Part shown: positions 7,617 through 12,048 of the stretch, piece by piece
How the letters are laid out: each line of letters opens with the position of its first letter
How positions within the stretch are numbered: the first letter of the stretch is position 1
NCBI GenBank assembly: GCA_003388545.1
Contig: QQVI01000349.1
Location: forward strand, 1-44,359
Source: Actinomycetota bacterium
Lineage (GTDB): Bacteria; Actinomycetota; Acidimicrobiia; Spongiisociales; ZC4RG35
Reading direction: 5' to 3'
Length of the DNA: 44,359 nt
Notes under the pieces: generated by a model
What the model saw: only the letters and a program-made list of their open reading frames with translations
What the model was told of the DNA's origin: nothing
Databases searched by the model: none
Position numbers and translations under genes: made by a program

Positions 7617-8510
7617 GTGCCTTCTCTGATCATCCTTGCGTTGATCGGCCTGGCGGCTCAACTTGTGGATGGCTCCTTGGGGATGGCGTACGGCGTCACA
7701 TCGACGACGCTGCTCGTGGCCTGGGGGGCATCTCCTGCTCTTGCCTCCGGCTCAGTGCATCTCGCCGAAGTCGGCACGAGCCTGATCTCGGGAGCCTCGC
7801 ATTGGAGGTTCGGGAACATAGATCGCAAGGTCGTCCTTCGTCTCGGCGTCCCCGGCGCCGCAGGCGCCTTTCTCGGGGCAACACTTCTCTCCAACATATC
7901 GACAGCCGTGGGTCGGCCTGTGATGTCATCGATCCTCCTCGTCCTCGGAGCCGTGCTCTTGATCCGTTTCGCGTTTCGGGGGCTGACCACACCGAAGTCG
8001 AATTTCGGTCGCAGGGGTCGCTTTCTCGCCCCGCTCGGTCTCATCGCCGGCTTCATCGACGCCACAGGCGGAGGTGGCTGGGGGCCGATCGCGACACCAA
8101 CGATGCTCATCTCAGGTCGCACGGAGCTGAGGAAAGTGATCGGCTCGGTCTCCGCCAGCGAGTTTCTCGTTTCTGTCGCGGCCAGTGTGGGGTTCCTGGT
8201 GAACCTGGGCGGCGATGGAGTGGACTGGACGATCGCGGCCGCGCTCCTTGCCGGTGGAGCGGTGGCGGCCCCGGTGGCCGCGTTGCTGGTGGCCCGGGTG
8301 AGACCAAGGATCCTCGGGACGGTGGTTGGTGGCTTGATTCTCATCACCAACGTCAGGACGCTCCTGATTCATTTCGAGGTGCCGGCGCCGGTGCCACTGC
8401 TCGTCTACGGGGTTCTCGCTGTGCTGTGGGCGTGGGCCGTGTTCGCTGCTGTTGTTGGTTCGAAGCGAGAGGCGGAGAGCGCACAACCGCCGGCTCCGGC
8501 GAACGCCTGA
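7617..8510 (+). CDS. TSUP (TauE/SafE) family membrane transporter
   Basis: A 297-residue polytopic inner-membrane protein of the sulfite exporter TauE/SafE family, with roughly eight hydrophobic helices. The two repeats are visible: LAAQLVDGSLGMAYGVTSTTLL in the first half and LIAGFIDATGGGGWGPIATPTML in the second, the second carrying the family's glycine-rich GGGGWGP signature. Members move sulfite, sulfoacetate or related organosulfur anions; the substrate here cannot be assigned. The GTG start has a GGGGGTGG sequence just upstream, whereas a TTG at 7554 is actually the -35 hexamer. The tail ends in a short Ala/Pro-rich cytoplasmic stretch. It converges on imuB with three bases between stops. 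Confidence 0.85.
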   Translation: MPSLIILALIGLAAQLVDGSLGMAYGVTSTTLLVAWGASPALASGSVHLAEVGTSLISGASHWRFGNIDRKVVLRLGVPGAAGAFLGATLLSNISTAVGRPVMSSILLVLGAVLLIRFAFRGLTTPKSNFGRRGRFLAPLGLIAGFIDATGGGGWGPIATPTMLISGRTELRKVIGSVSASEFLVSVAASVGFLVNLGGDGVDWTIAAALLAGGAVAAPVAALLVARVRPRILGTVVGGLILITNVRTLLIHFEVPAPVPLLVYGVLAVLWAWAVFAAVVGSKREAESAQPPAPANA

Positions 8511-8513
8511 GCT

Positions 8514-9983
8514 TCAGTCATACACGCCGGCGAGGTAGCTCTTGCCGTTGGCGACAACACAGAGCAACGCACCTGCCGACGTGACGATCTGGTACCGATC
8601 AGCGTCGCGCTCCCCCGCCCACCAGCGTCCGCTGAGACGCCAGGGCCCACTCCAGGTGAGGACCGGCTCCCACCTCGTCCCCAGCCGCACCCGGGAGGGC
8701 ATGCCATCGTCCCATTCGACTTCGAGCGGTCGAAGACGCGGCGGGACGAGGGCGGGTGATGGCTTGGGAGTGGAACCCGGCCATGGAGCTCCTGGATCCC
8801 TTTCGATCTCTGCAGCAGACTCGTTCCAACGCGACCAAGCCACCCTTTCGGCCGGCATCCTGCCGCCCTGAGGACGGCCTTCGAGAACACCATCCGGGCC
8901 GAGAAGCGACTGGGCCCTCGCCAGAGCTCGCTCTGCCTCGATTCGCGCCGCCTCGTCACCGAAGATGCCGAGCTGCCGGCCATCGCCGGACAGATCGAAG
9001 GGAGCGATCCTGATCCGCGTTATGCCTCCCGGTACTCCTCCGGCTTCGACCCATGCGCGAAGCTGCCACCAGACCCGGTCGGTCAATGCCCTCTCTGTGA
9101 ACGGATCGGCCGATCGCCAGATCCTCTCCCTCGCCTCACCCAATGCAGGTTGGGCGAGGATCGAGACCTGATGAGGAGCCACGCCGTTCGATCGGAGGCG
9201 TTGCAGCATCCGCTCTGAGATGTTCCTAGCGGCAAAGGCAACCGCATCGACATGCTCCAACGGGTCTTCGAACTCCATTTCCACAGAGAGCTCATCGGCG
9301 ATCTCCCGTGGAAGCGCATTGCGGTCTTCACCACTGGCCAACTTGTGGGCCAAAACGCCCTCGTGGCCAAACCGCGTGGCGAGTGCATCGCGGGGAAAGC
9401 CGGCAAGGTCGCCGAGAGTCGAGATGCCAAGCCATCGAAACGTCGCTATCAGTGAGTCGCTGGCAACACCCTCACGCAGTGTCTCCAAATCGAGAGAGCG
9501 CAAGAACCGCAGAGTGTCCTCGACGATCACTGGATCACCGACCGCTGACCGGGCCGCGGCCCATCTGGCGGCAAAGGGGCCGTCGGCTATGCCAACCAGA
9601 GCCTCACCGTATCCGGCTATGCCTTCGGCCACCTTCATCGCAATGATGTCTTCCCCGCCGTAGAAGCGAACCGCTCCCCCGACCGGTACGAAGAGAAGCC
9701 CGGGCTCGACGACTTCGACTCTGGGTATCAGGGCCTCTATCACCTCGATCACCGCCTCGAAGCGTCGCGCCTCCTCACCCACATCCCGGGTCAGGACGGT
9801 GGCAAAGGGTGCGAGTGCCTCTGCTTCCCGTCTCGGCATCCCTAGGGTCACGCCAGCCTCGAGCACCTCCGGCGTAGCGGCCGTAACCCGATCGTCGACG
9901 ACCAGTAGCGGCTTATCCTGCGGCGCGTCTGGCCTGGTCAGCGACCACATCGGAAACCAGACGCAGAGGGTTCTTGCTCTCAT
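8514..9983 (-). CDS. imuB: ImuB, inactive Y-family polymerase homologue (mutasome adaptor)
   Basis: ImuB links the error-prone polymerase DnaE2 to the beta clamp during SOS mutagenesis. The 489-residue protein has the Y-family fold but lacks the catalytic acids: the first motif reads [10 protein letters not shown] where active polymerases have DMDAFF-like residues, and the SxDE motif is replaced around VEPGLLFVP (residues 92-100). A helix-hairpin-helix region lies at about 186-215 (LGISTLGDLAGFPRDALATRFG). A beta-clamp-binding motif, QLGIFG, is at 337-342, where ImuB proteins keep QLPLW-like sequences. The start [10 protein letters not shown] was chosen over an ATG 60 bases upstream because it matches the fold and follows an AGG-type site. 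It overlaps imuA by 71 bases. DnaE2 is not in the window. Confidence 0.88.
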   Translation of the reverse strand: MRARTLCVWFPMWSLTRPDAPQDKPLLVVDDRVTAATPEVLEAGVTLGMPRREAEALAPFATVLTRDVGEEARRFEAVIEVIEALIPRVEVVEPGLLFVPVGGAVRFYGGEDIIAMKVAEGIAGYGEALVGIADGPFAARWAAARSAVGDPVIVEDTLRFLRSLDLETLREGVASDSLIATFRWLGISTLGDLAGFPRDALATRFGHEGVLAHKLASGEDRNALPREIADELSVEMEFEDPLEHVDAVAFAARNISERMLQRLRSNGVAPHQVSILAQPALGEARERIWRSADPFTERALTDRVWWQLRAWVEAGGVPGGITRIRIAPFDLSGDGRQLGIFGDEAARIEAERALARAQSLLGPDGVLEGRPQGGRMPAERVAWSRWNESAAEIERDPGAPWPGSTPKPSPALVPPRLRPLEVEWDDGMPSRVRLGTRWEPVLTWSGPWRLSGRWWAGERDADRYQIVTSAGALLCVVANGKSYLAGVYD

Positions 9984-10590
9984 CTTCGACCTGTTCGATC
10001 TTTCGACCGCCATCCTCCACTTCGAACCGTCTCGTGATCCCACCTGCCCCTTTCCCGGAGGCTTCGAGGAGGATGCGGCGACCCTTCAACTTCCCATGAC
10101 CTCTGTCGGCCCCTTCCCAGGTGATGCCGAGAGAACGGAGACGGAGGTGGGACACACCCGCCGGGAGCCGCGGGCCCATTGGCCGGAAAGCAACCAGGGT
10201 CTTGCGTGCCCTGGCCAGGGCACCGAGACGGCGCAGATCTTGATCCTTCATCCCCACCGGCACCTCTGCGAATACCGCAGGGACACCTTCGATCAAGGCG
10301 GCTGTGACTCTGGACCACAACGGGCGTTCGTGGCAGCGGACGATCACCAGGCTCTCCGCCTCGACGCCGGTTTCCCAAGCAGCTTCGGGAGAGATCCATC
10401 CCCTCGTGTCGACCACGACCACCGGGCCGGACCGTGACGGCTCAGCAAGCAGACTCAACCCGATACGGGTGAGACCTGCCCCGGTTTCACCGACCAACTC
10501 GGTGATTTTCCCGGGCTGAAGCCGCAAGAAGTCGCTCTCTCGCGGGCCGTCGAGGAGAGGTGCGGCTAGATCGATCTCCAGTTTGCCCAT
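9913..10590 (-). CDS. imuA: ImuA' RecA-like SOS mutagenesis protein
   Basis: A 225-residue RecA/SulA-like protein that with ImuB and DnaE2 forms the actinobacterial mutasome. The position of the P-loop is occupied by GETGAGLTR, in which the usual Lys is Leu, so ATP binding is doubtful. Later strands ([44 protein letters not shown]) match the RecA core. I chose the ATG at 10590 because GGAG lies eight bases upstream and because the promoter at 10655-10627 would start transcription near 10620, which excludes the GTG at 10623. A LexA box sits within the promoter, so the gene should be DNA-damage inducible. imuB follows with overlapping frames. Confidence 0.8.
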
Positions 10591-10626
10591 TTTTCTGACT
10601 CCGCTTCGAGCTCGATAGGGCACTTC

Positions 10627-10655
10627 ACACTATCGAACATATGTTCGAGACACAA
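10627..10655 (-). promoter_or_regulatory. imuA-imuB promoter
   Basis: On the minus strand TTGTGT (10655-10650) and TAGTGT (10632-10627) are separated by 17 bases, and the last 16 of these are the LexA palindrome. The predicted start is near 10620, giving a leader of about 30 bases before the ATG at 10590. Confidence 0.65.
10633..10648. promoter_or_regulatory. LexA operator (SOS box)
   Basis: TCGAACATATGTTCGA is a perfect 16-base palindrome matching the Gram-positive and actinobacterial LexA consensus (TCGAAC-N4-GTTCGA). It occupies the -35/-10 spacer of the imuA promoter and also covers the likely -35 region of the divergent crotonase gene. Bound LexA should block polymerase on imuA until RecA-triggered cleavage. 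Confidence 0.93.
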
Positions 10656-10662
10656 GCGCGGA

Positions 10663-10668
10663 TATCCT
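10663..10668 (+). promoter_or_regulatory. -10 element of the crotonase gene (leaderless)
   Basis: TATCCT ends exactly six bases before the ATG at 10675 and no Shine-Dalgarno sequence is present. The matching -35 region (10640-10645) lies inside the LexA box. Confidence 0.5.
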
Positions 10669-10674
10669 CGCTGG

Positions 10675-11532
10675 ATGAGCTACTCCACCATCACCTATGA
10701 GACGGCCGAACGCGTCGCCACAATCACACTGAATCGCCCCGATCGGCTCAACGCCATCAACGACACCATGCCCGGAGAGATCCGCAGCGCTGTCGAAGAG
10801 GCAAACCACGACGACGACGTCCACGTGATCGTCTTGACCGGCGCCGGAAGAGCATTCTGTGCCGGCTATGACTTGAAAGAGTACGCGGAGAACCCGGAGA
10901 CTCCGCTCACCCAGGACATGCCTTGGGACCCGATGATCGACTTCGACCTCATGTACCGGAACACCCAGGACTTCATGTCTCTGTGGCGCTCCTACAAGCC
11001 CACGGTGGCCAAGATCCGCGGCTATGCCGTCGCCGGGGGGTCTGACATGGCTCTGTGCTGCGACCTGATAGTCATGGCTGACGACGCCAAGATCGGGTAC
11101 CCGCCCACCCGGGTGTGGGGCTGTCCGACCACTGCGATGTGGGTCTACCGCATCGGAGCCGAGCGGGCCAAGCGAATGCTCCTCACAGGGGACCTCATCG
11201 CCGGGTCGGAGGCGAAGGAGATGGGCCTCGTCATCGATGCCGTTCCCGAGGCTGAGCTGGACGAGCGGGTGAGCCGGCTGGTCGACCGAATCAAAGGCGT
11301 TCCGCGCAATCAGCTGATGATGCAGAAGCTGATGGTGAACCAGGCCTACGACAACATGGGCCTTCAGTCGACCCAGATGCTTGCCACGCTGTTCGACGGC
11401 ATCACTCGTCACTCTCCTGAAGGCATCTGGTTCAAGGAAAGGTCCGAAGAGGTCGGCTTTCAGCAGGCTGTGAGAGAAAGGGATTCCGGAGAGCCAATCG
11501 CTGAGGAAGTCAGCCGGAGAAGAAAGGACTGA
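10675..11532 (+). CDS. Enoyl-CoA hydratase/isomerase family protein (crotonase)
   Basis: A 285-residue crotonase-fold enzyme acting on acyl-CoA thioesters in the cytoplasm. It starts with [14 protein letters not shown]. The oxyanion-hole segments are [15 protein letters not shown] (residues 58-72) and [28 protein letters not shown]. The second catalytic region reads [32 protein letters not shown], where classical hydratases have Glu/Asp residues, so the exact reaction is uncertain. The protein is somewhat longer than typical (about 260) because of a C-terminal helical tail. The TGA abuts the stop of the next, convergent gene at a TGATCA palindrome. It shares its upstream region with the SOS-controlled imuA operon. 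Confidence 0.85.
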
Positions 11533-12048
11533 TCACGGGTCGATCGGAGCGGGAACATGACAAGAGTCGACGCCCGGGCGAATCTCGTAGACAAGCCACT
11601 GTCCCCCGGAGCTCTTGAAGACGAGAGATCCGGTCTCCTGACTATCGCTGCCTCGTATCAGATAGCAGAGCTGTGGCTGCGACAACGACCCGAAGGGCAC
11701 CTGATCGACGATCACGTCAGCTGAGGGATCTGCCAGGACCGCAAGCTCGGGTAGCTCCCGCATTGCCGAATCGGGATGAGTCAACTGGCCCCATAGGTCG
11801 ATATCGTCGAGACGCACCGCCTCGAGCCAGCTTCGTCCATACGATGCGCCGACGTCACCTGCAAAGGGCGCCCCACCGGCGGCGACCGTTGTCGGAGAGA
11901 CCTCAGAGCCAGGTGCGAGAAGCGACACGAACAAGCCTGCAATCACAACAACGCCGGCGGCGGCGCCCGCAAGCCACATTCGCCTGGAGGGCATGGGCCG
12001 CTGCCGCCCGAAGTCACCAGCATCGGGAACAATTGGCTCGTCGGCCAC
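11533..12048 (-). CDS. Hypothetical single-pass membrane protein
   Basis: Not recognised. The 171-residue protein has a short cytoplasmic N-terminus (GDFGRQRPMPSRR), one membrane helix (MWLAGAAAGVVVIAGLFVSLL) at about residues 24-44, and an extracytoplasmic domain of about 125 residues. That domain contains SYGRSWLEAVRLDDIDLWGQLTHPDS, which resembles small NTF2/SnoaL-like folds seen in secreted actinobacterial proteins, plus two Cys (in PQLCYLIRG and DSCHVP) that could form a disulfide. The function is unknown. The GTG start is two bases from the stop of the glycosylase gene upstream, so they are co-transcribed. Confidence 0.65.
   Translation of the reverse strand: MADEPIVPDAGDFGRQRPMPSRRMWLAGAAAGVVVIAGLFVSLLAPGSEVSPTTVAAGGAPFAGDVGASYGRSWLEAVRLDDIDLWGQLTHPDSAMRELPELAVLADPSADVIVDQVPFGSLSQPQLCYLIRGSDSQETGSLVFKSSGGQWLVYEIRPGVDSCHVPAPIDP

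Follow-up and report, generated by a model that had tools for sequence, protein, structure and literature searches.

A LexA operator as the predicted promoter spacer of the imuA-imuB operon in an uncultured Acidimicrobiia-type lineage

Results

The imuA-imuB locus and its upstream region

The window, by which we mean the whole 44,359-nucleotide stretch of DNA analysed, contains on its minus strand a two-gene operon of the mutasome type, preceded by a short intergenic region with the following features:

8514..9983, minus strand: imuB, Y-family-like, 489 aa, with a likely ATG at 9983 and an overlap of about 70 bases with the end of imuA
9913..10590, minus strand: imuA, 225 aa, an ImuA'/Rv3395c-like mutasome factor, ATG at 10590-10588
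10599..10602, minus strand: Shine-Dalgarno sequence GGAG, 8 bases before the imuA ATG
10618..10621, minus strand: conserved GCCC block at the expected transcription start (columns 27-30 of the box-anchored comparison)
10627..10632, minus strand: predicted -10 element TAGTGT (TANNNT), from conservation across imuA loci
10633..10648, minus-strand reading 10648-10633: LexA operator (SOS box), perfect actinobacterial/Gram-positive consensus TCGAACATATGTTCGA, from sequence and comparison
10650..10655, minus strand: predicted -35 element TTGTGT, from conservation across imuA loci
10675..11532, plus strand: divergent crotonase/enoyl-CoA hydratase gene, outside the imuA module

The imuA product matches the NCBIfam model NF058630 with an E value of 5.5e-15 and 55.4 bits, under the curated cut-off of 65, and is therefore called ImuA-like by homology and by its imuB partner rather than by the curated model. 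The sole match of the imuB product is PF00817 (E 4.1e-10), and VEPG stands in place of the catalytic SLDE of Pol IV, as expected of an inactive ImuB, with the N-terminal aspartate lying outside that alignment. The two genes adjoin each other in 52 of 54 related loci. On the other side of the intergenic region, the crotonase gene begins 84 bases from imuA, and it was absent from this place in all relatives compared. Within 10675-12048, the crotonase gene (plus strand) and a 171-aa open reading frame (minus strand) stand between fpg and imuA; in 12 of the 54 related loci fpg is found upstream of imuA at a distance of at most 1.5 kb and crotonase is missing there, so that the crotonase region looks like an insertion in the lineage of the window.

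Read on the minus strand from 10655 to 10627, the intergenic region runs TTGTGT, C (10649), TCGAACATATGTTCGA and TAGTGT, base for base where the original prediction had placed these elements, followed 3' by GAAGTGCCC, the GGAG site and the imuA ATG at 10590. All 16 positions of TCGAACATATGTTCGA are symmetric, making it a perfect palindrome that matches the CGAACN4GTTCG-type consensus, and it occupies 16 of the 17 bases between the hexamers, the remaining base being the extra C. The spacing falls within the 16-18 bases of sigma-70-type promoters, with weak hexamers in the window and conserved ones in relatives. Because the window hexamers match TTGACA and TATAAT at only 3/6 positions each, because a scan of 8400-12000 for consensus sigma-70 promoters returned none, and because chance alone would give 0.8 copies of the loose core GAACN4GTTC per window, making that core weak evidence by itself, a single sequence is insufficient here, and from the window alone the promoter geometry would be only a guess.

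Conservation of the operator and its flanks in relatives

Comparison with relatives lifts the predicted promoter geometry above chance. In a search of 34 genomes of the same family, imuA was found in 28, and wherever the 5' side was usable (26 relatives) a GAAC-N4-GTTC box lies upstream of the gene. The box is flanked asymmetrically by conserved sequence, with TTGNCA abutting it on one side, a TATGAT-like hexamer directly after it and the GCCC block 6-9 bases further on. Most of these relatives have a 16-base spacer, that is, the box itself, as opposed to 17 bases in the window; the original claim that the palindrome exactly fills the spacer thus describes the common arrangement in the family, and the window departs from it by the one extra C. 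Among the 25 family loci with enough upstream sequence, TANNNT occurs at +0 after the box in 23, at any other offset outside the box in 0-2, and on the opposite strand in none (0/25).

A scan of named genomes outside the family added 28 imuA loci, titled mostly Acidimicrobiia or Actinobacteria with a few metagenome-assembled genomes (MAGs) labelled, for example, Acidobacteria or Armatimonadetes, and in 28/28 of these the box is followed by TANNNT at +0 or +1. We pooled 53 imuA loci in which 60 bases or more of sequence precede the box; they come from the window, from other members of its family, and from Acidimicrobiia and related MAGs at a greater distance. TANNNT follows the box at +0 or +1 in 53/53, compared with about 0.04 matches per control offset, and TTG lies within -8 to -4 of the box in 42/53, which together back the earlier reading of this site as a LexA operator set in the spacer of an imuA-imuB promoter. 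The full consensus TCGAACN4GTTCGA is present in 44/53 and the identical 16-mer TCGAACATATGTTCGA in 31/53. Mean pairwise identity over the 53 loci falls from 0.93 in the box to 0.50 across the -10 and 0.47 across the -35 region, and to only 0.27 upstream and 0.30 downstream; the flanks are therefore under selection and not merely inherited. Since every testable imuA relative has the same layout, the comparison identifies the site as a real LexA operator within the predicted imuA promoter. A chance palindrome was rejected because the box is conserved across relatives, even though about one copy of its loose core is expected per window.

The central N4 of the imuA boxes is mostly ATAT, though the consensus leaves these bases free, and lexA boxes vary there. 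An alternative -10, TATGTT within the box, was discarded; it is part of the palindrome in many relatives but comes without a conserved -35 at the right distance. In the sampled loci of other actinobacterial orders, no TANNNT abuts the box and the distances from box to TTGAC differ, and several such loci contain no exact box; judged from these sequences, the operator-as-spacer layout is not universal.

The same comparison bears on the crotonase gene at 10675, which the operator might mainly, or also, control. The gap of only 84 bases would allow this, and TATCCT at 10663-10668 ends 6 bases before the crotonase ATG, forming a possible leaderless promoter whose -35 region would lie inside the LexA box. 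Yet none of the relatives has a crotonase gene here and all have the box, and the plus-strand flank of the box is GACACA rather than TANNNT. We consider this reading unlikely and, given the relatives without crotonase at this place, rejected SOS control of that gene as the main role of the site; an effect of the operator on crotonase is possible as a side effect, but is not the conserved function.

The translation start of imuA

With the hexamers at these positions, imuA transcription is predicted to start at about 10619-10621, near 10620. GGAG/GGAGTCAG recurs before the homologous imuA starts of relatives, which lie at the same place (ATGGGCATCGAG in locus L047, encoding MGIEE, and TTGGGC(ATC) in several others), and homologous ImuA proteins begin MG(I/K). 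These similarities support the ATG at 10590 as the start of imuA, in agreement with the original prediction, although it is homology and the GGAG site, and not the operator itself, that point to this codon. The GTG at 10623 is in frame but was rejected because the homologous starts match 10590 and because, if the promoter is right, a codon upstream of the predicted transcript start near 10620 would be unusable.

The same layout at dnaE2, lexA and recA

The arrangement recurs at other SOS genes. At dnaE2 of the same family (loci L115-L140; L002:326-371 in the genome of the window), the box is followed by TANNNT at +0 or +1 in 23 of 25 loci, with a weak -35 that reaches 4/6 in only 3/25. An in-frame start codon, ATG or GTG, follows the -10 at a distance of 6-8 bases in 22 of these 23 loci, from which we predict a leaderless dnaE2 mRNA in the family. 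The upstream-most start of the dnaE2 open reading frame in the window's own genome is an ATG inside the LexA box, and is probably not the true start.

At lexA, which has two to four LexA boxes upstream of it in most family genomes (L011:1401-1516, L145-L174), it is the gene divergent from lexA that has this layout, with TANNNT after the box in 27/29 and a TTGACA-like -35 of at least 4/6 in 24/29; in most genomes the outward-facing box reads TTGACA-box-TANNNT. In the window's own genome this gene encodes a short LysM protein with the promoter TTGACA-box-TAAAGT, and recA of the same genome has a box followed by C-TAGTGT.

These loci bear on a reading that we hold less probable than control of crotonase, namely that the palindrome is a LexA operator but the hexamers are chance matches or extended LexA sequence, the true imuA promoter lying elsewhere. 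It would accord with the weak hexamers of the window and with the A immediately preceding and the T immediately following the box, a symmetric pair that could belong to an 18-base LexA site. However, TANNNT stands on the gene side only (53/53, compared with 0/25 on the other strand), and at the lexA divergent pair the asymmetry of the flanks reverses with the direction of the gene. Flanks that turn with the gene argue for promoter elements and not for an extended LexA site, and an extended symmetric site as the cause of flank conservation was rejected on the grounds of this asymmetry and direction.

Least probable of all is induction of imuAB mainly by PafBC with LexA secondary. The mycobacterial RecA-NDp/PafBC motif is TTGTCRGTG-N8-TANNNT; it was found neither in the intergenic region of the window nor in the imuA promoters of relatives, which differ from the motif at no fewer than 5 and at 3-6 positions, respectively, and the TTG-to-TAN spacing here is 22-23 rather than 17. 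The precedent is the mycobacterial imuA'-imuB/dnaE2 cassette, which is under both LexA and PafBC (PMC10421592), so that induction there is partly of this kind.

LexA boxes, LexA and RecA in the same genome

We located further box sites in the window's own genome by pattern searches. The full 16-mer TCGAACATATGTTCGA has 4 sites in 2.46 Mb, compared with 0 for a reversed control: one at imuA, two at dnaE2 on near-duplicate contigs and one at a DUF222-HNH gene; the pattern CGAACN4GTTCG has 16 sites, compared with 5 for its control. Boxes stand upstream of lexA, dnaE2, recA, uvrA, a DEDDh-GIY nuclease gene and an alkB-like gene. The boxes at L003:1132-1147, L008:1501-1516, L009:1501-1516, L024:898-913 and L007:1501-1516 are near genes for a DUF222-HNH protein, a DEDDh exonuclease-GIY-YIG protein, an alkB-like 2OG oxygenase, UvrA and a 263-aa protein, the last with no Pfam match. 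No TANNNT abuts the uvrA, alkB-like and DUF222-HNH boxes of this genome.

The genome encodes both LexA, with a readable AG cleavage motif and the GDSM/TVK serine-lysine motifs, and RecA, and both genes have boxes. About 1698-1742 of lexA in L005/L011 reads N, leaving its DNA-binding region readable only in part. RecA (G000:C208, L205, minus strand) contains an in-frame insertion with matches to intein-splicing and LAGLIDADG endonuclease domains, which, from these matches and its position between GVMFG and SPETTPGG, is a RecA intein. In one genus (g3, G002-G007), six genomes, each at least 94% complete, contain neither imuA nor dnaE2, and five of the six keep a lexA match, a pattern that suggests joint loss of the mutasome.

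Discussion

Taken together, positions 10655-10627 very probably form a sigma-70-type imuA-imuB promoter whose spacer is the LexA operator. The operator reading is based on the geometry, on its conservation and direction, on the presence of LexA and RecA, and on the operator shared with dnaE2, lexA and recA. In an undamaged cell, a LexA dimer on the palindrome would keep RNA polymerase off the flanking -35 and -10. Upon DNA damage, RecA filaments would make LexA cleave itself and thereby free the spacer, and transcription would then start near 10620, so that ImuA would be translated from 10590 behind a leader of some 30 bases that contains GGAG. For imuA, we infer LexA binding, occlusion of polymerase, the start site and damage induction from sequence comparison, and tight repression and clean SOS induction of imuA-imuB, as originally proposed, are predictions. 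Binding of LexA within promoters, preventing polymerase binding, is established elsewhere (PMC9578287). By analogy with the rule in E. coli that stronger boxes are induced later (PMC9578287), the perfect box suggests high affinity and, perhaps, late induction.

By its sequence, the site is an SOS operator of the ordinary kind; what is unusual is how well the operator-as-spacer layout is conserved. The box is a perfect match to the SOS consensus CGAACN4GTTCG of B. subtilis and S. aureus (PMC9578287) and matches the 16-bp Streptomyces SOS box (PMC9380542); it does not differ from the actinobacterial/Bacillus box except that its central ATAT is unusually constant at imuA. The mycobacterial and other LexA-controlled imuA'-imuB/dnaE2 mutasomes resemble the present one in having an ImuA'/ImuB-like two-gene operon, dnaE2 elsewhere and a LexA operator upstream (PMC10421592). 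What distinguishes the present system is its Acidimicrobiia-type uncultured lineage, a box that serves as promoter spacer with an abutting TANNNT, an arrangement not seen in the sampled other actinobacterial loci, and the lack of a detectable PafBC motif.

The box of integron intI lies over the -10, and several E. coli SOS promoters are also overlapped by LexA operators. Such a placement, a 'classic operator organization' (PMC3108266), makes repressor and RNA polymerase mutually exclusive, as would apply here. Unlike such overlapping operators, the one here makes up the spacer itself, and does so in the same register at three separate gene families of a single lineage. The short LysM gene divergent from lexA occupies the position of the LysM division inhibitors YneA and ChiZ/Rv2719c, a synteny known in Gram-positives (PMC6851548), and we note it here because it shares the promoter layout of imuA.

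Control of imuA-imuB and dnaE2 by LexA is well documented (PMC10421592), as are promoter-overlapping operators (PMC3108266). Possibly new are the layout itself, with the operator fixed as spacer in three gene families of one lineage, and the prediction of leaderless dnaE2; our literature searches, with subscription papers mostly outside their reach, returned no paper on this promoter geometry in Acidimicrobiia. We hold with about even confidence the wider proposal that, in this Acidimicrobiia lineage, the LexA operator is a fixed spacer part of SOS promoters, in constant register at imuA, dnaE2 and the lexA-divergent gene, and that dnaE2 has a leaderless mRNA beginning 6-8 bases after the -10.

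The resulting promoter rule, TTGNCA and TANNNT separated by the LexA box as a spacer of 16-17 bases, is testable and would predict SOS genes, transcription starts and true start codons, with the caution that gene callers may choose the ATG inside the dnaE2 box, which is probably the wrong start. In this uncultured lineage of actinobacteria, the comparison points to SOS control of the mutagenic ImuAB-DnaE2 system. If the proposal is true, promoter strength would be inseparable from repression in these bacteria, and new SOS genes could be recruited by gaining one 28-base module.
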